A stretch of DNA of 64,000 bases. Origin: an uncultured Alphaproteobacteria bacterium (GTDB lineage Bacteria > Pseudomonadota > Alphaproteobacteria > HIMB59). Positions 28,054 to 57,037 of this stretch are shown here, in pieces. The position numbers and the translations under genes were made by a program. Each line of letters starts with the position of its first letter. The first letter of the stretch is position 1. The stretch covers positions 62,001 to 126,000 of the forward strand of contig CACKEA010000005.1 in assembly GCA_902599045.1 (NCBI GenBank), in the 5' to 3' direction. The notes beneath the pieces were generated by a model. The model had not been told where the DNA came from, did no database searches, and saw only the letters and a list, made by a program, of their open reading frames with translations.

Positions 28054-28058
28054 ATATC

Positions 28059-32521: not shown

Positions 32522-32616
32522 TACTTACTTATATAAACCTCAATTTATGAATTTATAAAAATAATTTTATTTTAATAGTATTAATTCACAATATAATATC
32601 AATATATCGCTTTAGT

Positions 32617-38123: not shown

Positions 38124-39106
38124 TATTTAAAGAAAAATTAAAAAATAAATCAAAAATTTTTTTAGATGGTGGAAATGGTTCAGAGATAGCAAAACTTGGT
38201 GGAGATATGAGTCCAGCATTTGCTGCACTAGCTACGATTACCTCACCTGATATAGTAGTCAAAGTTCATGAAAATTTTATAAATGTAGGTTGTGATATTA
38301 TTACCGCAAATACATTTGCAACAAGTAGACACGTACTAGATAGCTTGAATCGCAAAAATGAAACAAAAAAGTTTTTAATTAAATCTGTTGAATTAGCAAG
38401 AAAAGCAATCACAAATACTAATAAAACTGAAAAAGTTGCTATAGCTGGAAGTCTGTCAAATTTTTTTGCATTAAAAGAAAATGAATTTGTACCTAATCCA
38501 AAGTTTATTCCTTCATATAAACAAGAAGAAAGAAATTATATTGAAGCTGCTAACATATTAAAAGACTCTGGAGTAGATCTATTAATTTTAGAAATGTTAC
38601 TTGATATAAACCATTCTGAAATATTACTAAATGCAGCTTTACAAACTGGTCTTCCTGTATGGGTTGGTCTAAGTTGTTGTGAAAGTAAATTTGACAACAG
38701 TATAGTTGGAAGAAATTTTAGAGCAGAAAAAGAAAAATCATTAATTTATGATGAAGAAAAGTACAAGGAACAACCAAAATTTTTACCCGAAGATGATATT
38801 ATTGAATTTGAAGACATAATAAGAACACTTACAAACATTGGTGGAGATGTTTATGGTATTATGCACACATGGTTTCAAGATAGTTCTGGTGGATTGAAAA
38901 TAATAAAAGATTATTGGAAGGGTCCAATGATGTATTATCCAGAAATACATAAATTTGATACAAGTACTCATGAAGCTATTGCTATGAGCACAGAAGATGA
39001 GTTTGCAAATTCCTGTTTAGAATTTATTGACGATCAAATACAAATAATTGGTGGGTGTTGTGGTGTTAGTGACACACACTTAAAGAGATTAATTGAAAAA
39101 TTTTAA
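38120..39106 (+). CDS. Homocysteine S-methyltransferase-family protein, copy 1
   Basis: A 328-residue protein with the MmuM/BHMT barrel: 'FLDGGNGSEIAKLGG' near residues 14-28, 'CDIITANTFATSR' near 58-70, 'LSCCES' near 191 and 'GGCCGVSDTHL' near 310-320. The Cys in the second segment and the Cys pair in GGCC form the zinc site. Family members take a methyl group from S-methylmethionine, betaine or a sulfonium and give it to homocysteine; the methyl donor here is unknown. A diverged paralogue lies 2 kb away on the other strand (40.2 kb). Confidence 0.85.
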   Translation: MIFKEKLKNKSKIFLDGGNGSEIAKLGGDMSPAFAALATITSPDIVVKVHENFINVGCDIITANTFATSRHVLDSLNRKNETKKFLIKSVELARKAITNTNKTEKVAIAGSLSNFFALKENEFVPNPKFIPSYKQEERNYIEAANILKDSGVDLLILEMLLDINHSEILLNAALQTGLPVWVGLSCCESKFDNSIVGRNFRAEKEKSLIYDEEKYKEQPKFLPEDDIIEFEDIIRTLTNIGGDVYGIMHTWFQDSSGGLKIIKDYWKGPMMYYPEIHKFDTSTHEAIAMSTEDEFANSCLEFIDDQIQIIGGCCGVSDTHLKRLIEKF

Positions 39107-40244: not shown

Positions 40245-41161
40245 TTTTTTAAATTTGATAGTGCTTTGATATGGTTAGGACTAATTCCACAACAGCCCCC
40301 TACTATTTGGGCACCATTATCAACCCACTGTTGTGCTTCTTCTAAATAATCTTTTGGGGAAATACTTTCTATAACATTCCAATTAGGTTTTTTAAAAAAA
40401 CCATTATTAGGGTATACACCAACGATTCCACCGTAGTTTTTTTTAGCAATCATAACTGCTTGATTAGCAACCTTAATATCAGAGTGAGCTATTAAAACAG
40501 GTCCATTATGAATGTCTTTAAATTTAATTATCGTGCTTTCAAAATCATCATAAAAAAAAGCCTCAGAGTTATTTAAACTTTCTTGATAACCAAGCATAAG
40601 CTTATTACTTTTTCTATCTAAAGCACATGATATTGAAAGCCATACTGGTAGATCAAATTGATCAGAGCTATCTAGTAATGACTCAATAGTTCTAGTAGAT
40701 GAAGTCATTGCTTCAAGAATAATTAAATCTACACCAGCATTAGATAAAATGTTTATCTGTTGGATAAAACCTGGCTTTAAATATTTAGGTTCAATTTTAT
40801 CCCAACTACCATAGGTTGATACTGAACCAGCAACAGCTATTTCACGATCAGAATCATTTGCTACTGATTTAGCTATATTTACACTGGCATTATTCCATTC
40901 TTCAATGTGATGTTCATAACCATACTCTTTCATAGAAATAGGAGTGCTAGCATATGTGTTTGTAGTTATGATATCAGCACCTGAATTTATAAAGTTTTGA
41001 TGTGCTTTGTATACAATATCAGGTTCATCAATAGAGCATCTCCCCGACCAAAGATCTTTATCCATAGAAGCTCCAAGGTTTTCTAATTCTGCTCCCATTC
41101 CACCATCTAATAGTACAATGTCACCAGAATTTAATTTATTTTCAATATTAGAGTAAGACAT
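40241..41161 (-). CDS. Homocysteine S-methyltransferase-family protein, copy 2
   Basis: A 306-residue protein with the same fold as the gene at 38.1 kb: 'VLLDGGMGAELENLG' near residues 16-30, 'ADIITTNTYAST' near 58-69, 'SISCALDRKS' near 184-193 and 'VGGCCGISPNHI' near 288-299 with the zinc-binding Cys residues. It shares only scattered identity with copy 1, so the pair is old or separately acquired. It closes the minus-strand operon that includes the MalEFG-type transporter, TauD-type oxygenase, ALDH and VOC protein. The methyl donor is not predictable. Confidence 0.85.
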   Translation of the reverse strand: MSYSNIENKLNSGDIVLLDGGMGAELENLGASMDKDLWSGRCSIDEPDIVYKAHQNFINSGADIITTNTYASTPISMKEYGYEHHIEEWNNASVNIAKSVANDSDREIAVAGSVSTYGSWDKIEPKYLKPGFIQQINILSNAGVDLIILEAMTSSTRTIESLLDSSDQFDLPVWLSISCALDRKSNKLMLGYQESLNNSEAFFYDDFESTIIKFKDIHNGPVLIAHSDIKVANQAVMIAKKNYGGIVGVYPNNGFFKKPNWNVIESISPKDYLEEAQQWVDNGAQIVGGCCGISPNHIKALSNLKN

Positions 41162-43943: not shown

Positions 43944-44825
43944 TTAACCTTTTACGGCACCTGCAGTTAAACCGCTGATCAGTTGGCGTTGAAAAAACCA
44001 TATAATCATGAATAGTGGTGCTGTCGCTGAAACAACACTTGAGACAGCCCACATATAATTACCGCCATATTCAATTGTTCCTAAATAAGCATTTATTTTA
44101 GGAACCATTGTGTAGTTCTCTTGATTTAATAATAAGGCAGTAACAGTAAAATCATTATAGGCTAACATCATGCTAAATAAACCCGCTGTAACAACGCCCG
44201 GCCACATGACTGGCATAATGATGTAGCGAAATGCTTGGAAGTAAGAGCATCCATCAATTAATGCACTTTCATCTAATTCTTTTGGTACCGTTTTAAAAAA
44301 TGAATAAAGAAGCCATAATGTAAATGGCTGATTAATAGCAACAAGTACTATAATTGTAGTGGGTAAAATTCCCCAAATGTTTAATTGAAAAAAAGGAAAT
44401 AAATAACCTGAAACTAAAGTTATATGAGGCATTGCTCTAAAAATAAGAGCAGCAATTAAAATGTAAAAAGTATATTTATAGGTTGATCTTGATAATGCAT
44501 AGGCACCCAAAGTTCCAAGAAATAATGAAATTGATACGACAGATACTGTTACAATCATTGTATTCATAGAGGCTCTCCAAAATTCACCTTCTGTCCATGA
44601 CTCAATATAGGCTTTAACAGTGGTAGTAGCGCCTGTTTCTATTAAGGTATTGAAGCCACTAAGTGCATAAGTCCACTCAGCTCTTGAAAAGAAATCCGCT
44701 TTTACTTTGAAAGATCCCCATAACGTCCAAATAAATGGAAAAATTGAAATTGTTAGCCAAAATAAAATAAAAATACTGTTTATAATTATAAGCTGTTTTG
44801 AATATTTATTTAATCTGGTATCCAT
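43944..44825 (-). CDS. MalG-type ABC sugar permease
   Basis: A 293-residue permease with six membrane helices and the EAA loop 'DESALIDGCSYFQAFRYIIMPVMWP' region near 192-216. The carbohydrate-uptake-1 (MalG/UgpE) subfamily is indicated by the N-terminal 'FPFIWTLWGSFK' segment near 28-40. Its ATG follows the stop of the upstream permease with no gap (TAAATG). No ATPase gene is in this operon. Confidence 0.88.
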   Translation of the reverse strand: MDTRLNKYSKQLIIINSIFILFWLTISIFPFIWTLWGSFKVKADFFSRAEWTYALSGFNTLIETGATTTVKAYIESWTEGEFWRASMNTMIVTVSVVSISLFLGTLGAYALSRSTYKYTFYILIAALIFRAMPHITLVSGYLFPFFQLNIWGILPTTIIVLVAINQPFTLWLLYSFFKTVPKELDESALIDGCSYFQAFRYIIMPVMWPGVVTAGLFSMMLAYNDFTVTALLLNQENYTMVPKINAYLGTIEYGGNYMWAVSSVVSATAPLFMIIWFFQRQLISGLTAGAVKG

Positions 44826-45854
44826 TTATCTTTCAGTTCTAAATTCTTTCCATGTTCTTATAAGCACTGGGGTTAGTAAAATTGCTATTCCGAGAATAGT
44901 CAACATAGAGGTAGCACCTGCAGATCCAAAAAGCATTTTATTTTCATTTCTTAAATCTTGATAAATCATCCATGAAAGAGACTGTGCTACTCCTTCTGCA
45001 GAGAAGCCAATTATTGGCTCAAAAACTCTAAAATTATCCATTAAACAAATTAACATTATAAATGTTGCAACTGGGTATAAATGTGGAATTACGATGTAAC
45101 GTACTCTTTGAAATCTAGAAGCACCGTCTATATAAGCAGCCTCGATTGGATCTTGGGGCACTGTTTGTAAAGCTGCATAAAATACAACGAATGCAAATGG
45201 TGTATTATGCCATATTCCATAAATAATAAGTGTAATCCAAGTTAGATTACTTGAGGCTTTTAAAGAAAGGTTTGGGTCATCAAAAAGAATTTGAATACTT
45301 GCACCGATTATACCTTGTGAGTCAATCATCCAAAACAATACAAGAGAACCAATTAGAGGTGTCACAATCATTGGTAAAATAGTTCCAAAGACTATAAGAC
45401 CCTTAATACTCTTTGCTAATGTATTTATGCTCAAAGCTACTATGAAACCTAAAAAGATTACTGGTGGTGTGACAGCAAAACAAAACGTTAAAGTAAATAA
45501 TAAAGCTTTATAAAATGGAAGATTTAATACTATATCTTTAAATTCACCCATTGATGAAGAGATATTCCAAGCCTCTCCTATTTCATCAAAAGCTAAATGA
45601 TTTCTATCTAAATAAGTACCAAATCCATTAAATCTCCCTAAAGGGTTTTCTTCTCTTAATTTATCAGTTGCCTCTACATCAACACGAACATTAGTTTGAC
45701 ATCCAAAGGGATCACAGTTCTCAACTTCCATTAAAACTTGCTGGGTCTCAATATGAAGAGATTGAAAAAAACTTGACACTATAGGAAGTCCTATAAAGAG
45801 TATCATTGCTAATCCCGTAGGAAAAATAAACCAAAAGAAAGTTTTATGAGGCAT
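44826..45854 (-). CDS. MalF-type ABC sugar permease with periplasmic insert
   Basis: A 342-residue permease. After the first helix (about residues 8-30) comes an insert of some 80 residues before helix two, carrying two close Cys (CDPFGC) that may form a disulfide, a small analogue of the MalF periplasmic loop. The EAA loop 'EAAYIDGASRFQRVRYIVIPHLYP' region near 235-258 is canonical. It follows the binding-protein gene after an attenuator hairpin and precedes the MalG-type gene directly. Confidence 0.87.
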   Translation of the reverse strand: MPHKTFFWFIFPTGLAMILFIGLPIVSSFFQSLHIETQQVLMEVENCDPFGCQTNVRVDVEATDKLREENPLGRFNGFGTYLDRNHLAFDEIGEAWNISSSMGEFKDIVLNLPFYKALLFTLTFCFAVTPPVIFLGFIVALSINTLAKSIKGLIVFGTILPMIVTPLIGSLVLFWMIDSQGIIGASIQILFDDPNLSLKASSNLTWITLIIYGIWHNTPFAFVVFYAALQTVPQDPIEAAYIDGASRFQRVRYIVIPHLYPVATFIMLICLMDNFRVFEPIIGFSAEGVAQSLSWMIYQDLRNENKMLFGSAGATSMLTILGIAILLTPVLIRTWKEFRTER

Positions 45855-45864
45855 TAAGTTTATT

Positions 45865-45898
45865 TAGAAAAAAAGAGTGGATCATTAAGATCCACTCT
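45865..45898 (-). terminator. Attenuator hairpin between binding-protein and permease genes
   Basis: A perfect ten-base stem (AGAGTGGATC at 45874-45883, GATCCACTCT at 45889-45898) with a five-base loop (45884-45888). On the minus strand it is followed by seven T residues (45873-45867). It lies 22 bases after the stop of the binding-protein gene and should lower transcription of the permease genes relative to it. Confidence 0.85.
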
Positions 45899-45920
45899 AT
45901 CAAATTTTATTTAGGTTAGT

Positions 45921-47156
45921 TTATAAAAAACCTTGCTCAGTAGCTTTAGCTACATAAGCAGCTTCAACGTCTGCTAAAGCTTTTTCTGCAGACTCATTAC
46001 CCTGAAGAAATTCAACAAGTTCAGAACTTAATGCACCGTGCATTAAACTCATATGAGGAAAACTTGGATAAGGAGTTGCACCTCTGTTAGCTGCATCAAC
46101 AACCGGTCCAGCTGTATCACCTGGTGTGTAGCCTTTAATTAACCAAACTGTAGCGTTTGGATTGTCATTAGCTAGTTCAGATGATGAAGCAGCTCCAACT
46201 AGAGCTCTAAAAGATGCTTCAGCATTTTCATCAGAGGTATTAGTTGAAATACCTATACCATCCCACCAAAGAGTTGTAGCTGGCTTACTACCACCACCCA
46301 CACTTGGAGAAGGTGCTAATCTTGTATCTGCTTTAATAGCTTGATCACCTTCATCATCAAGTAATGATGCGGCTCCTGAATTCCAAACATGCATCAATGC
46401 TACATTGCCTGATTCCCATTCCTCTTTAACAGCGTTTGTATCTTGTGTTAAAAAGTCAGGATTACTTAATTCTGTTAATTTTTTGATTACGTTAAGAGCT
46501 GCCACTCCCTTTTCATTATTAACATTTGGTTGGGCAGAACCTGATTTAAAGAATTCTCCACCATGACCTAGGTACATGTTTACGAATTCTTGTCCAAGAT
46601 TCCATCCAGATTTAAATGCACCTGCGTATGGGTTAGGCATTACTCCAGCAGCTTTAATTTTTTCTGCAGCAGCAATTACTTCTTCATAAGTAGATGGGAC
46701 ATCAATACCTAGATCGTTAAGAATACTCTCTCTGTACCAAAGATGTTGAGCGTTTGCCATAAAAGCAACTGCATAAATTTTTCCATCAATAGTAATTTTT
46801 TGGTTTTCATTCAAGTTGGCGCCATATTTTGCGACTAAATCATCTAATGGACGAATTAAACCATCATTCATTAAAGGTGTTATTGATCCATTAGTAACTA
46901 GTTTTGCAGAAAATTCTGCAGGGTTAGCTGATAATGCTGCTACTTGTAATTTGTTATGATCAACAGAGTGCGTAACATTAAAGTCTGCATCTGGTCCAGC
47001 ACAACTTTTTACTTCATCCATAAAAATTCTGTATGTAGTAAATTCGTTAGCTAGAATATTTATTGAACCGTTCGTAACACCACATGGTGAGTGACTACCA
47101 GCAAAAGCACTAGCAGATACAAACGAGAACAATAAAGCTATTAGTAGTTTTTTCAT
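45921..47156 (-). CDS. Sugar-type ABC substrate-binding protein
   Basis: A 411-residue periplasmic protein with a signal peptide (cleavage near ASAFA-GSH, residue 20). 'TFYRI'-like aromatic strands, 'VNNEKGVAALNVIKKL' near 215, and 'ALMHVWNSGAASLLDDEGDQ' near 253-272 place it in the SBP_bac_1/MalE group. Two Cys (CGV at 25 and SCAG near 51) may form a disulfide. The ligand is not predictable; the downstream TauD, ALDH and methyltransferase genes argue against a simple sugar. Ribosome site AGAGGAAAT before the ATG. First gene of its operon. Confidence 0.88.
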   Translation of the reverse strand: MKKLLIALLFSFVSASAFAGSHSPCGVTNGSINILANEFTTYRIFMDEVKSCAGPDADFNVTHSVDHNKLQVAALSANPAEFSAKLVTNGSITPLMNDGLIRPLDDLVAKYGANLNENQKITIDGKIYAVAFMANAQHLWYRESILNDLGIDVPSTYEEVIAAAEKIKAAGVMPNPYAGAFKSGWNLGQEFVNMYLGHGGEFFKSGSAQPNVNNEKGVAALNVIKKLTELSNPDFLTQDTNAVKEEWESGNVALMHVWNSGAASLLDDEGDQAIKADTRLAPSPSVGGGSKPATTLWWDGIGISTNTSDENAEASFRALVGAASSSELANDNPNATVWLIKGYTPGDTAGPVVDAANRGATPYPSFPHMSLMHGALSSELVEFLQGNESAEKALADVEAAYVAKATEQGFL

Positions 47157-47282: not shown

Positions 47283-47702
47283 TTACTTAAAATTTAGACC
47301 CATCTGTTCAAAAACGCCATGATTATCAACCATCACATAATTGTCCATAAATTTACCATTTTTTATTGTCCAAAAATCTGAAAACTGCATTTTAATGGAC
47401 TTACCAGTTGGCTCCACTCCAAGATATATCCCACTATGAGTTCCAGTTAAAAAACCCGTTGCACTTATCCAATCACCTTCAGCGACAACAATATCATTTT
47501 TTACATGATAGTCTGGAAAAGCCTCATAAAAAGGCTTAAGAACTTTATACTTAAAATTTTCTATACCGTGTATGTCACCAAAACCAGGAGGTCCATGCCA
47601 AATCATATCATCATTCCAATATTGATGTTGTGCTTCTAAATCCTGAGCATTCAAAGCGTCGTACATTTTTTCCAATAAAATTTTATTGTCATCTAAATTC
47701 AT
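47283..47702 (-). CDS. Single-domain SnoaL/NTF2-like protein
   Basis: A 139-residue protein of the SnoaL-like (ester cyclase/polyketide cyclase) group: 'LLEKMYDALNAQDLEAQHQYWNDDMIWHGPPGFG' region, 'FYEAFPDYHVKNDIVVAEGDWI', and a C-terminal 'NHGVFEQMGLN'. The 'W-[H]-GP-x-G' motif near residue 36 recurs in the two-domain proteins at 48.9 and 53.8 kb. The ATG at 47702 is preferred because an AGGAG site precedes it and because it gives the family N-terminus; it overlaps the upstream gene stop by four bases (ATGA). The catalytic role is unknown. Confidence 0.78.
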   Translation of the reverse strand: MNLDDNKILLEKMYDALNAQDLEAQHQYWNDDMIWHGPPGFGDIHGIENFKYKVLKPFYEAFPDYHVKNDIVVAEGDWISATGFLTGTHSGIYLGVEPTGKSIKMQFSDFWTIKNGKFMDNYVMVDNHGVFEQMGLNFK

Positions 47703-48838
47703 TTTTTTTCTCCTAAAATTTGTATTAAAATTGCTAGTTCGTTGAAACCAGTCCATTCTTTTATGATTTTATTATTTTTTATCTCCCATTGTGTAATACC
47801 CCACAAATGACATTCTTTGTTTGATGGATCTCCATATATACCATTTCCTTTATGAGTTCCTACTGCTCCCCAACGTATAGATACTAAATAACCTTCATTA
47901 TCGTTTCCCATCCAATAAAGATCTTCGATGCTAAGTGCGAGGTCAGGAAAAGAAGATATTAGTGAAATTATAAAATTTTTAAGTTTAGGTAATCCTTTAA
48001 ATTTACGACTTGTTGATCCCTCAAATTCAATATTATTTGAATATACTCTTTTTATTGCAGAAAAGTTTCTTCTATTCCAAATCGTATCGAAAACAGCATG
48101 TACAAATTTTCTCATATTTGTAATTTTATTTGGAATTTCATAACTAATTGGCTTTAATTTTTTTATTTTCCTTCTAGGTTTTGAATTTTTAAAATTAGGA
48201 GCAAAAGGACCAATATTTCCATCTTTTGCGATTTGTTTTGCAATTTCATTTAGATCTAAGCCTAACTGTTTAATTAGGCCTGCAGTATCATAAACAACAT
48301 TTTCATAATATATTTCATTATTCTTTGCGACACAGTTAGCTATACAGAACAATCGTACTGGTTTACCGGTTGGTTTTGAAAACTTACTATAACCTGTGTT
48401 AGTTCCGGTAATGATAGTTCTGTGCGATGTATGAAAACTAGTTTTATCGTCTCCAGCCCATATAACCTCGTCTGCAAATAATCTAATATCGGGAAAGGCA
48501 TTATTCGTATGAATAGTGTCAGATACAATTTTTTCAGATCCAAATTGTAGTCCAAGTTCGTCCCAAACACGGCATTCTGGACTATAGGTGTCATAAATAT
48601 AACCAATGTTTTTTTCTTCCCAAATTGTGTAAGTAATTCTTACAATATAATCGATAATATTCTTATATTGTCTCTCAAAACCTTTCATGGATTGTTTAGA
48701 TAGAGTTTTGGGCTTTGGGTTTAAAGATTTTGAATTGCCTCCTCCTCCATAAGCTTTTAGAGATAAATTAAAGTTTTTAGGCATATGATGATCTTTTAAA
48801 GGAGACGGTTTAATATCTTTTATATGCTTATTTATCAT
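47699..48838 (-). CDS. Two-domain SnoaL/NTF2-like protein, type A
   Basis: A 379-residue protein with two NTF2-fold SnoaL-like domains (about residues 60-195 and 245-375). Repeated marks are 'ITYTIWEEKN..YIYDTYSPE' and 'VFDTIWNRRNFSAIKRVYSNN', each followed by a 'FPD' turn and a strand ending in 'GDD/GND'. It is a paralogue of the protein at 51.8 kb, both beginning near 'MKGF'; here a 50-residue Lys/Pro-rich N-terminal extension precedes that point, so the true start may be internal (Met51). Coupled by ATGA to the single-domain gene. Confidence 0.75.
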   Translation of the reverse strand: MINKHIKDIKPSPLKDHHMPKNFNLSLKAYGGGGNSKSLNPKPKTLSKQSMKGFERQYKNIIDYIVRITYTIWEEKNIGYIYDTYSPECRVWDELGLQFGSEKIVSDTIHTNNAFPDIRLFADEVIWAGDDKTSFHTSHRTIITGTNTGYSKFSKPTGKPVRLFCIANCVAKNNEIYYENVVYDTAGLIKQLGLDLNEIAKQIAKDGNIGPFAPNFKNSKPRRKIKKLKPISYEIPNKITNMRKFVHAVFDTIWNRRNFSAIKRVYSNNIEFEGSTSRKFKGLPKLKNFIISLISSFPDLALSIEDLYWMGNDNEGYLVSIRWGAVGTHKGNGIYGDPSNKECHLWGITQWEIKNNKIIKEWTGFNELAILIQILGEKK

Positions 48839-48949
48839 TTAATTTTTTTAATTTTATTATTCAAGAAATACTATTAAATAAAATTCAAAGCAATATTATT
48901 TTTATGAAATGAATATTGTTATTTTATTTTTTATATTATAAATAAATTC

Positions 48950-49951
48950 ATGCCGGATTTTCAAAAAGAAAAATTATTAGTGTTAGAATTTTTAAATGCA
49001 ATTGATAATGCAAATGACAATAATTTAGTTGAAATAATATCTAAATATACATCTAAAAATTTTAATATGAAATGTACACATCCTTTTAATGAACTTAAAG
49101 GAGCTGATAAAATTGCAAAATATCTTTGGTCTCCAATTAAAAAATCTTTTAAACCCATACAAAGAAGAATGGATATTTTTTATGCTGGAACAAACTTAGT
49201 TGATAACCATTCATCAAAATGGGTTGTAAATATGGGACATTTTCTTGGAAGTTTTAATAATCCATTTCTTGGAATAGAACCAACAAAAAAAACAGTAATG
49301 CTTTGGTATTGTGAGTTCTACAGAGTAGAAAATAACAAAATTACTGAAGGTGCTTTTTTTTTAGATATTTTGAAATTTATGCAAAACTTAAAATTATCTG
49401 TAGTGCCAGACTCAACTGGAATGGTTGGTTTCAATCTCGGACCAAAAACTCATGATGGTTTATACTTTGAAAAACAAAGTGAAGAAGAAGGAAATAAAAC
49501 TCTAAATCTTATGATGAGAATGGCAAACAGATTAATTGGTGAAGGAATGAGAACAACAGTTTCTGATTTAGAAAAAGACTGGCATGAGGATATGATATGG
49601 TGGGGACCCGGGGGTATTGGTGCATCATATACATATGATGGATATTTAAAGGGTCATACTGGACCATTTGAAGAAAATCTCGAATTTATTGAATTTTCTG
49701 GTCATGTACTTGAAAATTCTGAGGGAAACTTTGGTGGATGGTTTGGTTGGCCAAATTTAAAAATGAGACCCAAGGGAAATTACATGGGATTAACTCAAAA
49801 CACAGATCTGATTGGGGAAATGAGAGTTGTTGATCTTTATAGAAGAGATAAAAATAAAATAGCAGAAAATTGGATATTAATTGATCATTTACATTTTTTA
49901 AAATGTATTGGTATTGATTTACTTGATATAAACAGAAAATTAAAAGATTAG
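48950..49951 (+). CDS. Two-domain SnoaL/NTF2-like protein, type B
   Basis: A 333-residue protein with two SnoaL-like halves. The N-terminal half has 'CTHPFNELKGADKIAKYLWSP' near 41-61 and 'GHFLGSFNNPFLGIEPTKKTV'. The second has 'DMIWWGPGGIG' near residue 214-224. It aligns with the protein at 53.8 kb over both halves ('HPxNELKG', 'WxGPxGIG', 'IDxxHxL'). The pairing of SnoaL halves is unusual, and no named enzyme matches. Divergent from the type A gene (112-bp AT-rich gap); its end overlaps the MetE-like gene by four bases. Confidence 0.75.
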   Translation: MPDFQKEKLLVLEFLNAIDNANDNNLVEIISKYTSKNFNMKCTHPFNELKGADKIAKYLWSPIKKSFKPIQRRMDIFYAGTNLVDNHSSKWVVNMGHFLGSFNNPFLGIEPTKKTVMLWYCEFYRVENNKITEGAFFLDILKFMQNLKLSVVPDSTGMVGFNLGPKTHDGLYFEKQSEEEGNKTLNLMMRMANRLIGEGMRTTVSDLEKDWHEDMIWWGPGGIGASYTYDGYLKGHTGPFEENLEFIEFSGHVLENSEGNFGGWFGWPNLKMRPKGNYMGLTQNTDLIGEMRVVDLYRRDKNKIAENWILIDHLHFLKCIGIDLLDINRKLKD

Positions 49952-51078
49952 ATTATTTTTGATGCAAGTTTTGTTCCCTCAACAAGTGCATGAAGTTTTT
50001 CATAACAAATATTTTCATCAATTTTTCCAAATCCAGCAAAAGTACTAAAACCACAATCAGTACCAGCCATTAATTGATCTTTTGGAATAACAGTTGAATA
50101 TTTTATTAATCTTTCTGCGACTACTTCGGGATGTTCAATAAAGTTTGAAGTAGAGTCTATTACACCAGGAACCAAAATTTTATCTTTAGGTAGTTTTATT
50201 TTTTCAAAAACTTTCCACTCATGAGCATGACGAGGATTTGAAGACTCAATCAAAAAATATTTTATTTTAGATTTTAAAATTATCGGTAATATTTTTTCAA
50301 GAGGTATATCACGGGTATGAGGACCTTCATAATTTCCCCAGCAAATATGCATTCTAGTCATTTCACATTCAACATTTGCTAAAGCATTATTTAAACATTC
50401 AATTTGCAATTCAGCTCGTTTTAAAAATTCTTCGTCAGACAAATCTTTAAAATTCATATGTCTTGCTAGCGCTAAATCTGGACAGTCTAATTGAACATGA
50501 ATATTAGAATTTGTAATTTGTTCATATTCTTTTGACATTATGCTAGATAATTTATCGAGGTATTCGTCATCATTTTTATAATATTTATTTGGCATAAATA
50601 CATTTATTACACCAGGAGAAGCAGCGTTCATAAATGCTTTTGTGTGGTTCGATTTCTTTAATGATTTATTAAAATTATTAATATCTTTCAATAAAGAATC
50701 TTCATCTTTAATTTTGAGTTCTTTTGTACAACAAGGTCTGGAATAAGTTGGTGTACCTCCACTATTAGCTATTTTTTCTTTGTACTCTGGAAAATCATCT
50801 AAATCTGCAGGAGCTCTTCTTTCGCTCTCACCTGAAAAACCATCAATTCTATCTTTAATATAAGTAGCATAGCTTATTTTACTCATCTCACCGTCACTTA
50901 TAAAATCTATTCCAACTTCTATTTGTCTTTTTACTATTTGATCAACATTTGAAATTAAAATATTTTCAAACTTTTCATTATCAATTCTTTCACCTTTATC
51001 TTTTGCAAATAAATACTCTGATAATTGTTTAGATCTTGGTAAGCTTCCAACGTGTGTAGTAAGAATTTTAGATACCAT
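49948..51078 (-). CDS. MetE-core (UROD/MetE-like) methyltransferase
   Basis: A 376-residue protein equal to the C-terminal catalytic barrel of cobalamin-independent methionine synthase, without the N-terminal half. Start 'THVGSLPRS' near residues 8-16 and 'SDGEMSKISYATYI' near 61-74 are family segments. Zinc ligands are visible: His and Cys in 'MHICWGN' near 242-248, Glu in 'IESSNPRHAHEW' near 277-288 and Cys in 'GTDCGFSTFAG' near 342-352. Stand-alone MetE cores use varied methyl or alkyl donors. It lies downstream of the RraA-like gene (one-base gap). Confidence 0.82.
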   Translation of the reverse strand: MVSKILTTHVGSLPRSKQLSEYLFAKDKGERIDNEKFENILISNVDQIVKRQIEVGIDFISDGEMSKISYATYIKDRIDGFSGESERRAPADLDDFPEYKEKIANSGGTPTYSRPCCTKELKIKDEDSLLKDINNFNKSLKKSNHTKAFMNAASPGVINVFMPNKYYKNDDEYLDKLSSIMSKEYEQITNSNIHVQLDCPDLALARHMNFKDLSDEEFLKRAELQIECLNNALANVECEMTRMHICWGNYEGPHTRDIPLEKILPIILKSKIKYFLIESSNPRHAHEWKVFEKIKLPKDKILVPGVIDSTSNFIEHPEVVAERLIKYSTVIPKDQLMAGTDCGFSTFAGFGKIDENICYEKLHALVEGTKLASKII

Positions 51079-51079
51079 A

Positions 51080-51784
51080 CTATTTTGAATTTAAAAATTC
51101 TTTATATTTCTCAACAAATTGTTTTTTTGAAAAATTTTTATTCTTTTTTAAAAAATTAAAAATAATATTTTCCTTTTTATTCATTCTTTTAATTAAATTT
51201 GGTAATTCTTTCAAATATTCTCTTTTAATTATGACAGCACCATGAAAGTCTGCATGTATAAGATCATTAGGCTTAACTTTCATATTAAATATATTTACTT
51301 CGCAATTTATTTTATGAATTTGATTGTATCCATGACCTACCCTAATTTCACCACTAAGTATTTGGAATTTTTTATCTATCTCTTGTAGGTCTCTCATAGC
51401 TCCATTAGTTATAGCTCCTTTAAAACCAAAATTTAAATGTATTGAAGCATTCAATTCTCCCCACCATGATCCAATTGTATTACTCTTATCCTTATCTTCT
51501 ATAACACAAATTTTTGGAAACTTTCCATCAAACATATATTCATAGTATTTATCTCTATTTTTAATAATGTTTGTATTCTTCTTTTTTGTCGATGTGATAA
51601 TAGCAGTCTTGGCAAAACCAATAACTGGTTTTAATTTTGGATTTAAACAATGCATAGTTTTTTGAGTATGTCCTTTAGATCTAAGTGAAGAGTCTAATAG
51701 CTCTAAAGAATTAGAAATAGTTGGAGTGTCATAATTTCTTATGTATTCAATAATTTTATTTTCAGTTTTAGTTAAGGGTTTCAA
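51080..51784 (-). CDS. RraA-like (HMG/CHA aldolase-type) protein
   Basis: A 234-residue protein of the RraA/dimethylmenaquinone-methyltransferase-like family: 'TPTISNSLELLD' near residues 16-27, 'ELNASIHLNFGFKGAITNGAMRDLQEI' region near 110-136, where the Arg-Asp pair 'MRDLQEI' is the catalytic/metal pair of 4-hydroxy-4-methyl-2-oxoglutarate aldolases, and 'IHADFHGAVII' near 178-188. Members are aldolases or decarboxylases of keto acids, or RNase E inhibitors; in a catabolic cluster the lyase role is more likely. Between a type A NTF2 gene and the MetE-core gene. Confidence 0.75.
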   Translation of the reverse strand: MKPLTKTENKIIEYIRNYDTPTISNSLELLDSSLRSKGHTQKTMHCLNPKLKPVIGFAKTAIITSTKKKNTNIIKNRDKYYEYMFDGKFPKICVIEDKDKSNTIGSWWGELNASIHLNFGFKGAITNGAMRDLQEIDKKFQILSGEIRVGHGYNQIHKINCEVNIFNMKVKPNDLIHADFHGAVIIKREYLKELPNLIKRMNKKENIIFNFLKKNKNFSKKQFVEKYKEFLNSK

Positions 51785-51787
51785 TAG

Positions 51788-52759
51788 TTATCCTGTTTGA
51801 AGTAATATTTGTTTCCAAATTATAGTTTCATCAAATAATACCCACTCATTTTTTATACCTTTTGGACCAAATTCAGCTTGAGATATTCCCATTATGTGAA
51901 CGTTTGCATTACTGGGGTTAGAGAAGAGATCAGGGCCTGAGTGTTTTCCCTCTAGTGACCATCTAACAGATGCTTTTTTATACTCATTTTTTTCTTCCAA
52001 ATAACTTATATGCTCTATTTTAAAAACAGCGTCGGGAAAAGTAGATCTTAGTGAGATCCAAAAGTTTTTTACTTCGTCAAGCCCTAAGGCTTTAAATCCT
52101 CCTGGCTGCTCTTGATTTACAGATCTATCATAAGAATTATCTATAACATTGAAATTGCTATAAAAAATTTCCTTTAATATATTCGCATAGTTTGTTCCAG
52201 TATTGTTTGAGGATATAGGTATTTGTAAATATTTAATTTCATGTGAAGTACTGTTATTAAAAGGTATTGAGCATTTATCTTTGCCACCTTGAAATTCAAT
52301 TAAGTTTGCAGCTTGTTTTTTAGGATCAATATTTAACTGACGTACAATAGCGCCCTGATCTCTTACAAGCCATTCATCATAAACCTGATTATTTTTACAA
52401 GCGCAGTCTGCAATAACTCTATACTTTAAAGTTTTTCCAGTTGCCTTTCCGTAGATACCATCATTTAAATGTGTAGCTTTTGATAAAATTCGGTGGGAGG
52501 ATAAATATCCATGTTCTTCATCGCCGATCCAGATGACATCTTCTCCTAATAACTGTCTATCTGGAAATTCATTTAAGGTAGCATAAGTGGCTTTAACAAC
52601 TACATCAGGTCCATATATTACACCATCAGGAGATCTTACTGGAATTCCCTCGGCATAATAATCTCTTATTGACTCAACATCTTTCTTCTCCCAAATTTGG
52701 TAAGTGATTTTTATAATATAATCTGGAAGATCTAAAAAATTTTTATCAAACCCCTTCAT
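51788..52759 (-). CDS. Two-domain SnoaL/NTF2-like protein, type A
   Basis: A 323-residue paralogue of the protein at 47.7 kb. First domain: 'MKGFDKNFLDLPDYIIKITYQI' region at the N-terminus, then 'VIWIGDEEHGYLSSHRIL' near 74-91 and 'TGKTLKYRVIADCACKNN'; second domain: 'NILKEIFYSNFNVID' near 196-210 and 'HSGPDLFSNPSNANVHIMGI'. Conserved His pair (SSHR, and VHIMG) and a CxCK segment recur in both paralogues. No enzyme activity is known for this two-domain type. Between the bicupin gene (two-base gap) and the RraA-like gene (three-base gap). Confidence 0.75.
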   Translation of the reverse strand: MKGFDKNFLDLPDYIIKITYQIWEKKDVESIRDYYAEGIPVRSPDGVIYGPDVVVKATYATLNEFPDRQLLGEDVIWIGDEEHGYLSSHRILSKATHLNDGIYGKATGKTLKYRVIADCACKNNQVYDEWLVRDQGAIVRQLNIDPKKQAANLIEFQGGKDKCSIPFNNSTSHEIKYLQIPISSNNTGTNYANILKEIFYSNFNVIDNSYDRSVNQEQPGGFKALGLDEVKNFWISLRSTFPDAVFKIEHISYLEEKNEYKKASVRWSLEGKHSGPDLFSNPSNANVHIMGISQAEFGPKGIKNEWVLFDETIIWKQILLQTG

Positions 52760-52761
52760 AT

Positions 52762-53736
52762 TTAGAGATTTTTTTGTCGAATAATAAAAATGCTTCCTTC
52801 TTGATTACTAATATTTTTTAAACTTCTATTTGACTCTCGTGGAGATGAGAAGGAGTCGTTTGGACCAATTATAGTTTTCTGATCATTACAAGTTACCTCC
52901 CACTCACCATCTAAACATAAATAAACTTCAGACTCTTTTAAAGTGTATGGGTGAATGTGAGCATTGACTCCTTTTAGCATGGTAAGGCCAAAACCTGTAT
53001 TGTGATCTATATTTGGATCAAAATCTTTATTGTGGATATTAAAATGATCAAGATAATTTAAGATTGAATTAGAGTCGTAATGCTCGTCATCTTTTAGATA
53101 TTTATCTCTATTCTCATAGCGTATAACGTAATTTTCAATTTCTTCAGATGTGTAATGATCATAAGTTTCTAAATCTTTTTCTTTAATAGGTTCTAAAGCT
53201 TCTTTACCTTTGGGGATTTTAGTTTTATCGAGATCTATTAAAGTATTATCATCAAGCAAAACCATTCCTGACTCCTTAGCTTTTTCTAAAACTTTTGGTG
53301 TCCAAGTAATAACACCTGGATCATTCTCTCCTAAAACAACAAATATTAAGGCATTTTTATCACTAACATTTTGAAATCCTCGAAACATATTTGTAGGAAA
53401 GGAAGCAACATCACCTTTGTTTAAAATAACTTCACCTTCTTTTCCCTCTGCTCCCCAATAAAATCGCCAAGAGCCAGAAAAAATTAGAAATACTTCTGCT
53501 GTCGTGTGGCTGTGAAGTCCTGATCCATTCATTGGTGCAGCACTTACAGCACCAATATTAAATCCGTGCTCCTCAGCTATCTTAACATTTTGTTTTGTAT
53601 CTTCACTAACACCAGGACCAACAATAGAATAATTTAATCTATCTTGGTGTCCTTTTAGTTTACCTTCAACAAAAGGTATTTTACTTGGAACTAGCTCACT
53701 AAACTTTACCAAACGATTATTAATATCCTGCGTCAT
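52762..53736 (-). CDS. Bicupin protein
   Basis: A 324-residue protein with two cupin domains. Domain one (about residues 65-140) has 'LHSHTTAEVFLIFSG', a full HxHx3E(x6)G motif; domain two (about 240-320) has 'HIHPYTLKESEVYLCLDG', with longer spacing. The second cupin motif normally brings a further metal-binding His; in both domains an Arg is found there ('PTNMFRGFQN', 'PRESNRSLKN'). A metal site of three residues is possible. Known bicupins include dioxygenases, isomerases and decarboxylases. First gene of a four-gene minus-strand operon with NTF2, RraA-like and MetE-core genes. Confidence 0.8.
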   Translation of the reverse strand: MTQDINNRLVKFSELVPSKIPFVEGKLKGHQDRLNYSIVGPGVSEDTKQNVKIAEEHGFNIGAVSAAPMNGSGLHSHTTAEVFLIFSGSWRFYWGAEGKEGEVILNKGDVASFPTNMFRGFQNVSDKNALIFVVLGENDPGVITWTPKVLEKAKESGMVLLDDNTLIDLDKTKIPKGKEALEPIKEKDLETYDHYTSEEIENYVIRYENRDKYLKDDEHYDSNSILNYLDHFNIHNKDFDPNIDHNTGFGLTMLKGVNAHIHPYTLKESEVYLCLDGEWEVTCNDQKTIIGPNDSFSSPRESNRSLKNISNQEGSIFIIRQKNL

Positions 53737-53820
53737 TAATTAGAATTTAAATATTTTCATATTGCTGAATATTATTCGAATTGTAAAGTTAATCAAAGTA
53801 ATATTTATTAATGTTAATAG

Positions 53821-54930
53821 GTGAGGCAATATAACTTGAGTGAAATTAAAAATTTTGATACTGGGATTCCGATAGAAAGTGGAATTAAAATTATAAATTT
53901 AGATCCTAAAGAAAATATTTTAAATAAAAAAAAAATAAGAAATATACTAAAAAAAATTTCTGAGTCTAATCTTGATGATTTAAGCCATAATATTAAAAAT
54001 GCATATCATGAAAATGCTGAGATCTATGCTTTTCATCCAGTAAACGAATTGAAAGGTGTTGATGAGATAATCGACACTCTTTGGAAACCTTTAATTTATT
54101 CTTTTCCCGACTTAGAAAGAAGAGATAATTTAATCATTGGAGGAAGTTTTCAAAATAGAGTTTATGTATCTACAGTTGGTCATTTAACGGGTACTTTTGC
54201 TCATCCTTGGTTAGGAGTTCCATCGAATGGAAAAACTATACATTTACGAATATGTGAAGTTCATCAAATAGAAAATGAAAAAATTATAAACTCTCATATC
54301 TTAATCGATATTATGGACTTTATAAGACAAGCAGGTTTTTGGCCTGTAAATCCATCTTTAGGAATTGAAGAAATGTGGCCAGGACCTATCACAGGAGATG
54401 GAACAACCTTCGAAAACCTAGATTCAAATTTATCAGCCACAACCTTGGATCAAGGTCTTACTATGCAAAGAAGCCTAAATATAAAACCGGAAACTGAGGT
54501 GGGAGTTACTAAAGATACAGTCAGAGAAAAATTAATAAACCATCCTCAAAAAGATTATTGGCATCCAAAAATGATGTGGTATGGACCGTGTGGTATTGGC
54601 ACAGCAAGGGGTCTAAAGGGATTTGTAGAACACCATCAATTACCATTTAGATTAACTTTTAAAGAGAGAGACTATTGGAAAATTGGTCATTACATAGAAA
54701 TTGGCGATGGCAATTATTCGATGACAGGTGGTTGGCACAGTATTCAGGCAACACATGGTTCAAGTGATTGGCTTGGTTATGAGGCTACACAAAGAATAAT
54801 AACAATGAGAGTAATGGATTTTTATTTACACAATGAAGGACTGATTAGAGAAAATTGGGTACCTATTGATATAGCTCATATTTTGTTTCAGTTGGATGTT
54901 GATGTTTTAAAACTGATACATAAAAAATAA
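53821..54930 (+). CDS. Two-domain SnoaL/NTF2-like protein, type B
   Basis: A 369-residue paralogue of the protein at 48.9 kb. N-terminal half: 'AFHPVNELKGVDEIIDTLWKP' region near 74-94, 'TVGHLTGTFAHPWLGVP'; second half: 'MMWYGPCGIGTARGLKG' near 251-267 and a final 'PIDIAHILFQLDVD'. The start is a GTG at 53821; no ATG is near. Length is slightly over that of the paralogue because of an N-terminal extension. It is two bases upstream of the HisD-like gene, so it is probably expressed with it and the following SDR gene. Confidence 0.75.
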   Translation: MRQYNLSEIKNFDTGIPIESGIKIINLDPKENILNKKKIRNILKKISESNLDDLSHNIKNAYHENAEIYAFHPVNELKGVDEIIDTLWKPLIYSFPDLERRDNLIIGGSFQNRVYVSTVGHLTGTFAHPWLGVPSNGKTIHLRICEVHQIENEKIINSHILIDIMDFIRQAGFWPVNPSLGIEEMWPGPITGDGTTFENLDSNLSATTLDQGLTMQRSLNIKPETEVGVTKDTVREKLINHPQKDYWHPKMMWYGPCGIGTARGLKGFVEHHQLPFRLTFKERDYWKIGHYIEIGDGNYSMTGGWHSIQATHGSSDWLGYEATQRIITMRVMDFYLHNEGLIRENWVPIDIAHILFQLDVDVLKLIHKK

Positions 54931-54932
54931 TT

Positions 54933-56258
54933 ATGGCAATAGAATACATTAAGAAAAGCACTAATGAGAAACAAAGACTTGATGATAATGAAAAAGTCAA
55001 AGAGGTTGTTGAAAATACATTAAAAGAAATTGAGTTAAGAGGAGATGAATATATCAGAGAACTCTCAGAAAAATTTGATAATTATTCCCCTACTCACTTT
55101 AAACTATCAGAAGCAGAAATTAATGAATTAATTAATGAAGTATCTGAAGAAGATATTGATGATATTAAATTTGCTCAAGAACAAGTTAGATCATTTGCTG
55201 AAGCACAATTAAAAACATTAAATGAGATGGAAATAGAAACTCAACCGGGTGTAATTCTTGGTCACAAAAATATTCCTGTTCAAGCTGTAGGATGTTACGT
55301 ACCTGCTGGAAAATTTCCAATGGTAGCATCTGCGCATATGTCAGTTGTTACAGCATCAGTTGCTAGTGTACCAAGAATTATAGCTACAACACCCCCTTTT
55401 CAAGGAAAACCAAATCCTGCGGTAGTAACAGCTATGAAAATGGGAGGGGCACATGAGATATATGTTTTAGGTGGCATGCAAGGAGTTGGCGCTATGGCTA
55501 TTGGAACAGAAACAATTAAAGCTGTAGATATGCTTGTTGGACCAGGGAATGCGTATGTTGCTGAAGCTAAGAGACAATTGTTTGGTAGAGTCGGTATTGA
55601 TCTATTTGCAGGACCAACAGAAACTATGGTTATTTGTGATGATACTGTAGATGCAGAGATATGCGCTACAGATTTACTCGGTCAAGCAGAACATGGCTAC
55701 AATTCCCCTGCTATAATGATAACAAACTCAAAAAAATTGGCACAAGAAACTCTCAAAGAAATAGATAGACTCCTAGAAATTCTACCTACGAAAGATACAG
55801 CTAGTGTAAGCTGGAGCGAATATGGTGAGATAATTTATTGTGAAACTTATGAAGAGATGTTGTTAAAAGCTAATGAAATTGCTTCTGAACACGTTCAGGT
55901 AATGACTAATAGAGATGATTGGTTTTTAGAAAATATGACCTCATATGGAGCTTTATTTTTAGGTGCAAGGACTAATGTTGCTAACGGCGATAAAGTAATA
56001 GGAACAAATCATACTTTGCCAACTAAAAAAGCAGGAAGATACACAGGAGGGTTATGGGTTGGAAAATTTATTAAGACACATACTTATCAAAAGATAACGA
56101 CTGATGAAGCAGCAACAAAAATAGCTGAATATGGCTCAAGATTATCACACTTAGAGGGCTTTATAGGCCATGCAGAACAATGTAATGTTCGAGCAAGAAG
56201 GTATGGTGGCATTAATGTTGGATACGGAAAACCTGTATCTAAAATTAAAAATATCTAG
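54933..56258 (+). CDS. HisD-family dehydrogenase (HpsN-like)
   Basis: A 441-residue protein of the histidinol dehydrogenase fold. Key segments: 'VGCYVPAGKFPMVASAHM' near residue 117-134, 'DMLVGPGNAYVAEAKR' near 199-214, 'GIDLFAGPTETM' near 222-233, 'LLGQAEHGYNSPA' near 249-261 with the zinc ligands Gln and His, and 'NHTLPTKKAGRYTGGL' near 356-371. It is outside any his operon. The 'GQAEHGYNSP' and 'GTNHTLPT' forms resemble HpsN (sulfopropanediol 3-dehydrogenase) more than biosynthetic HisD. It likely oxidises an alcohol to an acid in two NAD-linked steps. Confidence 0.82.
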   Translation: MAIEYIKKSTNEKQRLDDNEKVKEVVENTLKEIELRGDEYIRELSEKFDNYSPTHFKLSEAEINELINEVSEEDIDDIKFAQEQVRSFAEAQLKTLNEMEIETQPGVILGHKNIPVQAVGCYVPAGKFPMVASAHMSVVTASVASVPRIIATTPPFQGKPNPAVVTAMKMGGAHEIYVLGGMQGVGAMAIGTETIKAVDMLVGPGNAYVAEAKRQLFGRVGIDLFAGPTETMVICDDTVDAEICATDLLGQAEHGYNSPAIMITNSKKLAQETLKEIDRLLEILPTKDTASVSWSEYGEIIYCETYEEMLLKANEIASEHVQVMTNRDDWFLENMTSYGALFLGARTNVANGDKVIGTNHTLPTKKAGRYTGGLWVGKFIKTHTYQKITTDEAATKIAEYGSRLSHLEGFIGHAEQCNVRARRYGGINVGYGKPVSKIKNI

Positions 56259-56269
56259 AAATATTAAGA

Positions 56270-57037
56270 ATGTATTTAAAGAGTTTAGATTTAAAAAATA
56301 AAATAGCTTTAGTCACTGGTGCAGGAAAAGGCATTGGAAGAGCTTCAGCAATAGCCCTTGCTGAAGCTGGCGCAAATTTAATTATTTTAAGTAGGACTGA
56401 ATCAGATCTTGTAAAAGTAGAAAAAGAAATAATAAAATTAAAGAGAAAATGTAAATATTTTGTATGTGATATATTAAATAATAACCAAGTGATTGATATT
56501 TTTAGTAAAATTAAGAAACTTGATATTCTAGTAAATAATGCTGGTACCAATATTCCTTCTCATTTTACAAAAATTAAAAAGAAAGATATGGATTATATGG
56601 TTGATTTGAATATTAAATCAGCTTTTCACATAGCTCAATTAGCATCTAATAAAATGTTACAATCCAAAAATAGAAAATCTATTGGGGGGAGTATTATTAA
56701 TATGTCTTCTCAATTAGGCAAAGTTGGAGCTCCTAATAGAAGCACTTATAATATGACAAAATTTGGTATTGAGGGATTAACTAAAGGTATGTCGATAGAC
56801 TTAGCTTCTAATAACATTAGAGTGAATTCTATATGTCCTACTTTTGTTGAAACACCTATGGTTAAAAAATTCTTCCTAGATAAAAGTTTTAAAAAGAAAA
56901 CTTTGAATAATATTCCTCTTGGAAGATTTGCGACTGAAAGTGATATAGCCACCGCAGTTGTTTATTTGGCCTCTCATGCATCATCAATGATGACAGGATC
57001 ATCATTAGTCATAGACGGTGGATGGACAGCAAAATAA
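56270..57037 (+). CDS. Short-chain dehydrogenase/reductase
   Basis: A 255-residue classical SDR: 'VTGAGKGIGRASA' near residues 16-28, 'NNAGTNIP' near 89-96, Ser in 'NMSSQLGKVG' near 146, the YNMTKFGI catalytic Tyr-Lys near 160-164, 'VNSICPTFVETPM' near 184-196, and 'GSSLVIDGGWTA' at the C-terminus. Part of the plus-strand operon with the NTF2 and HisD-like genes. The substrate is unknown, but a role as an alcohol dehydrogenase in the same pathway fits. It converges on ytoQ with two bases between. Confidence 0.87.
   Translation: MYLKSLDLKNKIALVTGAGKGIGRASAIALAEAGANLIILSRTESDLVKVEKEIIKLKRKCKYFVCDILNNNQVIDIFSKIKKLDILVNNAGTNIPSHFTKIKKKDMDYMVDLNIKSAFHIAQLASNKMLQSKNRKSIGGSIINMSSQLGKVGAPNRSTYNMTKFGIEGLTKGMSIDLASNNIRVNSICPTFVETPMVKKFFLDKSFKKKTLNNIPLGRFATESDIATAVVYLASHASSMMTGSSLVIDGGWTAK

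Follow-up and report, generated by a model that had tools for sequence, protein, structure and literature searches.

A transporter-linked gene module centred on two-domain SnoaL/NTF2 proteins in an uncultured alphaproteobacterium

Organization of the locus

The DNA analysed here is a 64,000-nucleotide stretch (the window) of contig CACKEA010000005.1, part of the 1.37-Mb, 16-contig genome assembly GCA_902599045.1 of an uncultured alphaproteobacterium, and its guanine-plus-cytosine (GC) fraction runs from 0.245 to 0.335. The window contains a module of 13 genes: ten open reading frames (ORFs) between 47283 and 57037, five of which encode SnoaL/NTF2-like proteins, and three genes of a CUT1-type ATP-binding cassette (ABC) transporter at 43944-47156. 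Very probably it is dedicated to import and catabolism, with NTF2-fold proteins in the central role and a pyruvate-type aldolase as the last enzyme. All ten ORFs are found where the initial annotation placed them, and its proposal of a dedicated NTF2-centred catabolic module is supported by fixed partners and conserved residues; the transporter and the make-up from two separable modules had been missed.

The transporter genes lie on the reverse strand and encode permease 2 (43944..44825), permease 1 (44826..45854) and a sugar-type extracellular solute-binding protein (SBP; 45921..47156). The same strand carries the gene for a single-domain SnoaL protein (47283..47702), given here with the 139-amino-acid start seen in relatives (the ORF as listed starts at 47756), and A1 (47699..48838), a two-domain SnoaL/NTF2 protein of the System II type defined below; with the shorter start, the single SnoaL gene and the end of A1 share 4 bp. 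A divergent spacer of 111 bp (48839..48949) separates A1 from the two-domain protein B1 (48950..49951, forward strand), which converges on the gene for a stand-alone MetE core (49948..51078, reverse strand), the two ends overlapping by 4 bp. The reverse strand continues with an RraA-type protein (51080..51784), the two-domain protein A2 (51788..52759, System I type) and a bicupin (52762..53736). After a second divergent spacer of 84 bp (53737..53820), the forward strand encodes the two-domain protein B2 (53821..54930), a HisD-fold dehydrogenase of the alpha type (54933..56258) and a short-chain dehydrogenase/reductase (SDR) oxidoreductase (56270..57037). Both spacers, recognised from the measured gaps, are probably regulatory regions. 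The short spacing first reported within the operons was measured at 1-11 bp (metE-rraA 1 bp, rraA-A2 3 bp, A2-bicupin 2 bp, B2-hisD 2 bp, hisD-SDR 11 bp), besides the 4-bp overlaps.

Pfam confirms the partner enzymes as first named, with matches to Meth_synt_2 (PF01717), RraA-like (PF03737, 60.3 bits), Cupin_2 (PF07883, two stretches), Histidinol_dh (PF00815) and SDR. The SnoaL family (PF07366) is matched by two stretches each in A1, B1, A2 and B2 and by one in 47283-47756, and all five proteins exceed its gathering score of 28.4 bits (48.4-87.2 bits). This agrees with the earlier description of two paralogous two-domain pairs and a single-domain fifth protein; A1 and A2 are 36% identical over A2 residues 1-319, and B1 and B2 are 30% identical.

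Occurrence in other genomes and modular variants

A-type matches (E <= 1e-10) were detected in 101 of 149 relatives, or 102 of 150 including the window's own genome, and in 12 of the 20 genomes with completeness of 90% or more and contamination of 5% or less; the single-contig congener G029 has no A-type match at this threshold. Fifteen relatives, chosen among those with an A2 match, were examined at length. The hisD, B2, bicupin, A2 and metE genes were recognised in all 15, with a split hisD and a short metE in L032, a HisD only 46% identical to the window's in L037 and L038, and a metE running into the contig end in L044. A1 is present as an ORF in eight of these relatives and the single SnoaL in nine. 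The genome-neighbourhood check suggested at the outset thus finds the SnoaL paralogues with fixed partners in the loci examined, not scattered. Because this cluster holds nine of the 11 SnoaL-family matches found genome-wide, and because the same genes recur together in relatives and in other phyla, the cluster is not a chance grouping. In L032 (G038) hisD is split into two overlapping ORFs at 8824-9644, and the SBP as well as the metE gene is broken or short, which may reflect decay or an assembly error.

The CUT1-type transporter belongs to the module. Its SBP and permease genes adjoin the cluster in 14 of the 15 relatives, and in L044 the contig ends first. The adjoining SBPs are of more than one type, being either 40-48% or 78-95% identical to the window's, so the transporter is a fixed partner whose kind varies. 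Sequence matches of the window SBP in the PDB are sugar binders (for chitin oligosaccharide, trehalose/maltose, sulfoquinovosyl glycerol, acarbose and others), and since these are no better than 6e-13 to 3e-6 the protein can be assigned to a class only. No ATPase gene lies beside the window module. A MalK-like ATPase is encoded at 14455-15501, approximately 28 kb from the nearest transporter gene; it is 44% identical to the Ruegeria module ATPase and may be shared.

The genes on the far side of the transporter, at 38-43 kb, include TauD-like, glyoxalase-like, two homocysteine-methyltransferase-like and enolase-superfamily members, none of which was recognised in the stretches from the 15 relatives, and an aldehyde dehydrogenase with matches of only 26-27%, in L035 and L045. 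They were left out of the module for this reason. At 24061-33651 the window also carries a glycine-betaine/proline-type ABC transporter (binding protein, fused permease and ATPase) with BKACE-, GcvT- and molybdopterin oxidoreductase-like proteins and an SDR, names assigned by eye from the sequences; this set looks like quaternary-amine catabolism.

The module has a wide distribution. Its carriers are mainly marine alphaproteobacteria, and it also occurs in soil, leaf and saltern organisms. Of 72,556 plasmid records, 53 were matched in a tblastn search with A2. The 14 best of these, at 45-52% identity, belong to Ensifer, Ruegeria, Octadecabacter, Paracoccus, Marinovum, Vibrio, Tritonibacter, Rhizobium and Phaeobacter; a search with B2 matched 23, including a haloarchaeal plasmid of Halobellus limi. 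An A match is present in 28 of 385 genomes drawn evenly from the class and in 23 of 398 drawn from the phylum, the window's genome being counted in both. Some copies are of uncertain origin: L097, labelled Desulfosarcinaceae, has a roseobacter-like A2 (78%), and L101 and L103, two contigs that agree in length and contig number, are labelled Roseobacter and Flavobacteriia; either transfer or contamination may be responsible.

Named genome contigs contain at least 584 stretches with A-type relatives, of which the best 80 were kept; roseobacters dominate these because the first query row was a Ruegeria protein. Besides A2, by which they were chosen, the 80 loci contain LacI (78), a B4-type protein (77), the bicupin (75), permeases 1 and 2 (74 each), the SDR (74), HisD (73), the single SnoaL (69), an ATPase (68), the SBP (66), MetE (66), RraA (62), an alpha/beta hydrolase (57) and a B1-type protein (25), some of the misses being contig ends. 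The order ATPase-SBP-permeases-SnoaL-hisD-B-SDR-LacI-A2-bicupin-metE-hydrolase-rraA recurs in many of them. The annotated records examined name the module enzymes only as "ester cyclase", "histidinol dehydrogenase", "methionine synthase II" and the like.

The window joins two modules, here called System I (A2, B2, hisD, SDR, bicupin, metE and rraA) and System II (A1, B1 and the single SnoaL). Elsewhere, System II can occur with only a transporter and LacI. In Phaeobacter piscinae the A1, B1 and single-SnoaL types are accompanied by an SBP, two permeases and LacI, with no other module enzyme in the stretch, and the single SnoaL and A1 counterparts are 57% and 59% identical to those of the window. 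Ensifer adhaerens has the System I set and the A1/B1 set approximately 4.6 kb apart with separate transporters, and Ruegeria conchae has an NTF2-only copy in addition to its System I copy.

Partners were counted by tblastn with named reference proteins, as ORF calling had undercounted them on high-GC loci (antisense shadow ORFs), in the 148 of 157 loci that are at least 12 kb long and have an A hit. Because the loci were picked by an A-type match, or by a B-type match for two (L050 and L056), the counts tell what accompanies A and B proteins and not how often the module arises. NTF2 genes occur without other module enzymes, within the stretch, in eight of the 148 loci, Vibrio pelagius among them, and a CUT1 transporter is present in six of the eight. 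The Vibrio pelagius copy (L049, 1-7708) adjoins genes for a four-subunit sarcosine oxidase, which share a strand with two of its B-type genes. In two other NTF2-only loci (L090, 10094-11275; L096, 11007-12218), an ORF recognised by eye as resembling the major facilitator superfamily (MFS) follows A2, possibly encoding an exporter of the stripped core.

A third arrangement, System III, has an amidase and another type of HisD (HisD-beta) in place of B and, mostly, metE. It is found in Priestia, Alloyangia, Martelella, Pantoea, Novosphingobium, Sinorhizobium, Labrenzia and further genomes, and comprises A, an SDR, a bicupin or cupin, an alpha/beta hydrolase, an RraA or HpcH aldolase, LacI, the amidase and mostly HisD-beta, with an ABC or MFS transporter for import; the Labrenzia stretch contains only A, the amidase, two HisDs, a transporter and LacI. 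HisD-beta is less one-sided in its resemblance to HpsN (333 bits, against 297 to HisD) than the window HisD (366 against 246). Serine- or threonine-deaminating genes occur beside two of the loci, an L-serine ammonia-lyase near a B1-type gene in Vibrio europaeus (L056, 4290-9966) and a threonine/serine dehydratase near the System III cluster of Martelella (L148, 1-2683); each is a single case, and both would fit a release of hydroxy amino acids.

These differences in content were compared by Fisher tests, in which relatedness is ignored. HisD-beta and the amidase occur together in eight loci, HisD-beta alone in two (L157 and L180), the amidase alone in one (L152) and neither in 137 (p = 8.5e-11). 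B is absent from all ten HisD-beta loci and present in 132 of the 138 others (p = 7.9e-12). HisD-alpha accompanies HisD-beta in eight of the ten, and MetE in one (L157; p = 3e-5). B and MetE are found together in 106 of the 148 loci, and MetE without B in two (p = 1.3e-7). RraA is present in 88 loci and HpcH in 16, never both (p = 1.4e-7); three of the HpcH matches (L033, L085 and L151) are located at the stretch edge and could be stray hits. Since RraA and HpcH are mutually exclusive and both families include pyruvate-type aldolases, a retro-aldol end step is likely, as judged from gene content.

Conserved residues of the module proteins

The conserved acid- and histidine-type residues anticipated for the SnoaL proteins are apparent in the alignments. 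In the A family H89, R90, C119, E129, D134, R266, H273, E305 and E311 are invariant polar residues in 27 of 27 rows, and in the B family D333, E344, N345, W346 and D350 are invariant in 33 of 33. Structures were predicted with a mean local confidence score (pLDDT) of 93.1 and a template modelling score (pTM) of 0.91 for A2, and with 87.5 and 0.87 for B2. The Foldseek and VIA matches are fold-level only, with 7-21% identity over the aligned part to the 50 chains listed by Foldseek; families missing from these lists may still be related, and the second domain of B2 is hardly covered by the structure comparison. In a tree of 128 A proteins, A1 and A2 of the window fall in two deep clades, and A1 groups with System II rows in the half of the tree that also contains System III. 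This tree was made by a quick method from 128 of 168 rows, near-identical ones being dropped, and several long branches meet in it. Given this separation of A1 and A2, the A and B pairs seem to be old paralogues that have come together and not the product of a recent duplication.

Among solved structures the window HisD is nearest to HpsN, an enzyme of 2,3-dihydroxypropane-1-sulfonate (DHPS) metabolism. The reference residues of HpsN are Glu318, His319 and the metal ligand Asp352, and its sulfonate-binding His126 lies in the motif G-R-Y-A/S-H (PMC11382572). The corresponding catalytic Glu-His pair and metal Asp (E319, H320 and D353) are preserved in the window HisD and in all 20 aligned module HisDs. 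However, the sulfonate-binding His is found in none of these 20, and the window motif is G-K-F-P-M. The name "HpsN-like" given in the initial annotation therefore holds for the fold and the nearest solved sequences, and fails at the level of this residue. With the catalytic residues kept and the sulfonate His absent, the enzyme probably acts on a different vicinal-diol-like substrate. It reaches the TIGR00069 cut-off (425 against 243.8 bits) and does not match the histidinol dehydrogenase motif G-S-A-P-L; a second HisD on another contig (C2:81919-83127) scores higher, at 489.6 bits against 439.2 for the window copy. The L037 (13070-14356) and L038 (6348-7634) relatives, which belong to the same taxonomic order, have a different type of HisD in the cluster, 46-47% identical to the window's, with the motif G-R-N-N-Y or G-R-Y-N-N.

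In the MetE core, H244, C246, E278 and C342 are each preserved in at least 97% of 67 sequences, and from the MetE motif we take these four, including this particular Glu, to be the probable zinc ligands. The protein scores below the best curated methionine synthase cut-off (111.5 against 406 bits). Core-MetE homologues have been described in cosmopolitan marine bacteria, where their function was called questionable (PMC12478193). Two BHMT-type homocysteine-methyltransferase-like proteins, assigned by eye, are encoded within approximately 13 kb of the MetE core (38120-39106 and 40241-41161), so that this small genome may have three routes for methyl transfer to homocysteine within a short distance.

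The R131-D132 pair of the RraA-type protein is preserved in at least 97% of 63 sequences and in 9 of 9 rows of a separate alignment. Domain 1 of the bicupin retains H75, H77 and E81 (H75-x-H77-x3-E81), and a three-ligand metal site is possible on this basis. The best solved-structure match of the bicupin profile is acireductone dioxygenase, at E 0.0019 over 43 columns.

Candidate substrates and comparison with known systems

The core of the mycosporines, 4-deoxygadusol, has seven carbons and an O-methyl group. It is a cyclic 1,3-diketone that bears an enol methyl ether and in which a hydroxymethyl group neighbours a hydroxyl. Algal mycosporines carry amino acids and fungal ones glutaminol, which has one amide and one amino-alcohol CH2OH. 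Our preferred reading, put forward tentatively and somewhat short of probable, is that the module imports and degrades a small polar cyclitol-type compound, most likely mycosporines or mycosporine-like amino acids (MAAs). The sequence of reactions that we infer is as follows. The CUT1 transporter would bring in the compound, and the NTF2-fold A, B and single-domain enzymes would hydrolyse its enaminone or imine C-N bonds to give amino acids and 4-deoxygadusol. The MetE core would pass the activated enol-ether methyl to homocysteine, leaving 2-desmethyl-4-deoxygadusol, a reductone, and the HisD-fold enzyme could oxidise the ring hydroxymethyl beside the hydroxyl to a carboxylate, a four-electron step like that of HpsN on DHPS. 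The bicupin would open the reductone ring, which in the case of C1-C2 cleavage would yield 4-carboxy-4-hydroxy-2-oxoadipate, a known type of substrate of RraA-family aldolases, and the RraA or HpcH aldolase would split this into pyruvate and oxaloacetate.

According to a review, bacteria, Vibrio harveyi being named, convert shinorine and porphyra-334 to mycosporine-glycine and 4-deoxygadusol, and the passages on this name no enzyme (PMC3083659). Here an NTF2-only copy lies in a different Vibrio, V. pelagius. A 2021 review of nitrogen storage states that there is no evidence on intracellular MAA degradation and nitrogen release (PMC7828830). One open-access library (no preprints and few subscription papers), judged by titles and the opening parts of abstracts, yielded no paper on such a gene set, whether approached from its enzymes or from mycosporine degradation, which agrees, within that coverage, with the earlier statement that no described pathway has this make-up. 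"SnoaL" occurs 0 times in the main text of the paper describing AEGEAN-169 sugar transporters (PMC10308909). It is possible, if rather doubtful, that the module is the first gene-level instance of mycosporine breakdown, with NTF2 C-N cleavage, cobalamin-free MetE demethylation of a vinylogous methyl ether, bicupin opening of a reductone, and exchangeable side modules (B with MetE, or the amidase with the second HisD) matching the side chains.

A satisfactory account has to find tasks for NTF2 proteins that may accompany nothing but a transporter, for the MetE core, for HisD oxidation, for the bicupin and for an aldolase of exchangeable type, and has to say why an amidase and a second HisD replace B and MetE in some clusters. 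Mycosporines satisfy much of this. In their favour are the fixed composition, the NTF2-only copies, the likely retro-aldol end step, the pairing of the amidase with HisD-beta in System III, set beside the amide and amino alcohol of glutaminol, the loss of the sulfonate His with retention of the catalytic residues in the window HisD, and the weak acireductone dioxygenase match of the bicupin. The absence of MetE from most System III loci is a misfit, and several further observations weigh against mycosporines. MetE is lacking in nine of the ten HisD-beta loci, even though fungal mycosporines also carry an O-methyl group, and HisD-beta is the sole HisD in two of the ten (L145 and L157), which is at odds with a pure side-chain role for it. 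Four of the ten (L153, L180, L182 and L183) hold a further two-domain SnoaL protein. In the two Deinococcus loci, a CN-hydrolase and a third type of HisD take the place of the amidase and HisD-beta. The System III label requires four changes on the A tree, compared with 14.4 for shuffled labels, so there are perhaps only two to four independent cases. RraA falls below every curated equivalog cut-off (26.2 against 179 bits for PRK09262 and 24.3 against 304.5 for ligK_PcmE). The bicupin has Arg119 where the fourth metal His usually sits, so that a full 3-His/1-Glu site is absent, relatives do not conserve its second metal motif, and its acireductone dioxygenase match is weak enough that it could reflect a shared cupin motif. 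The SDR and the relatives' alpha/beta hydrolase are without a step in the proposed pathway. The SBP has no close solved relative, and LacI and CUT1 components suit any sugar-like ligand.

Nor are the variants sorted by habitat. System III comes from leaf, freshwater and plant isolates and also from a marine-aquarium Labrenzia. A clean split between System III on land and System I at sea was considered and rejected, as System III is found in Labrenzia, Alloyangia and Martelella, and System I on plasmids of soil Ensifer and Paracoccus. The mycosporine assignment is weakened by System III hosts that are not cleanly terrestrial.

A rather unlikely alternative is non-phosphorylative catabolism of a sugar- or sugar-acid-like substrate, in which the SDR and HisD would oxidise the ends, the NTF2 proteins would act as dehydratases, the alpha/beta hydrolase would open lactones, the bicupin would be an isomerase or epimerase, and the RraA or HpcH aldolase would cut a 2-keto-3-deoxy acid into pyruvate and a semialdehyde. 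A CUT1 transporter with a LacI regulator is typical of sugar systems, and both are present here; the sugar-binding matches of the SBP and the exchange of RraA for HpcH also accord with this account. However, no kinase, classical sugar-acid dehydratase or MocA-type oxidoreductase was recognised among the conserved families, and MetE, the amidase and the second HisD type would have no role.

It is unlikely, though composition alone leaves the substrate unfixed, that the same chemistry serves another amino- or amide-substituted, O- or N-methylated natural product. A nitrogen-containing substrate is suggested by the amidase or CN-hydrolase and by the amino-acid-handling genes beside some copies. 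Such a product would have to explain the handling of an amide and an amino alcohol in System III, the B and MetE of System I, and the NTF2-only Vibrio copy, and we know of no other compound class that gives all these variants a role. Homarine or trigonelline catabolism was considered and set aside, as the organisms fit but no such gene set was found in the open-access library searched and the transporter type is unsuitable.

NTF2 folds often merely bind ligands, and catalysis by the NTF2 proteins here is a prediction from sequence. It is nevertheless quite improbable that they are intracellular binders or regulators, with the chemistry left to the oxidoreductases and aldolase, given the six loci whose stretch has a transporter and NTF2 genes but lacks every other module enzyme, and the invariant acid/base-type residues in the A and B families. 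A DHPS pathway with an HpsN-type dehydrogenase, favoured by the abundance of DHPS at sea and by HpsN being the nearest solved structure to the window HisD, is very improbable and was rejected, since the HpsN motif is altered in the window HisD, its His is absent from all 20 aligned module HisDs, and no sulfo-lyase was recognised among the conserved families.

If the mycosporine assignment is true, the fate of a major group of ultraviolet screens, and of its nitrogen, can be tied to genes. Once the module is recognised, together with its NTF2-only form and its variants, the substrate can be tested directly in cultured strains, for instance of Ruegeria conchae, Phaeobacter piscinae and Vibrio pelagius. 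Whatever the substrate, no catabolic operon built around two-domain NTF2 proteins is known to us, nor a MetE core that works in catabolism, and both would be new functions.

Compared with the SnoaL polyketide cyclases and ketosteroid isomerases of PF07366, the window proteins instead have two fused domains and lie in catabolic operons with a CUT1 transporter; no polyketide genes were recognised around the cluster. PhzA/B of phenazine biosynthesis also have the NTF2 fold, but they are single-domain proteins of a biosynthetic condensation, and no sequence membership is claimed for the window proteins. HpsN, the DHPS 3-dehydrogenase, shares the HisD fold, catalytic Glu-His and metal Asp with the window HisD, in which Met replaces the sulfonate-binding His and around which no DHPS genes were recognised. 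The 4-carboxy-4-hydroxy-2-oxoadipate and 4-hydroxy-4-methyl-2-oxoglutarate aldolases belong to the same RraA-like family, and their Arg-Asp pair is kept in the window RraA; the latter is far under their equivalog cut-offs, and an HpcH-type aldolase takes its place in at most 16 of the 148 loci.

The fungal route to mycosporines makes desmethyl-4-deoxygadusol, methylates it, and then uses an ATP-grasp ligase to add glutaminol to 4-deoxygadusol (DDGS, OMT and ATPG; PMC10057719). The breakdown proposed here would be the last of these steps reversed, with the amino group taken off and then the methyl, and no common genes are claimed. Finally, core-MetE methionine synthases likewise consist of the catalytic C-terminal half only and keep the His-Cys-Glu-Cys set; unlike them, the MetE core of the window is placed in a catabolic operon.

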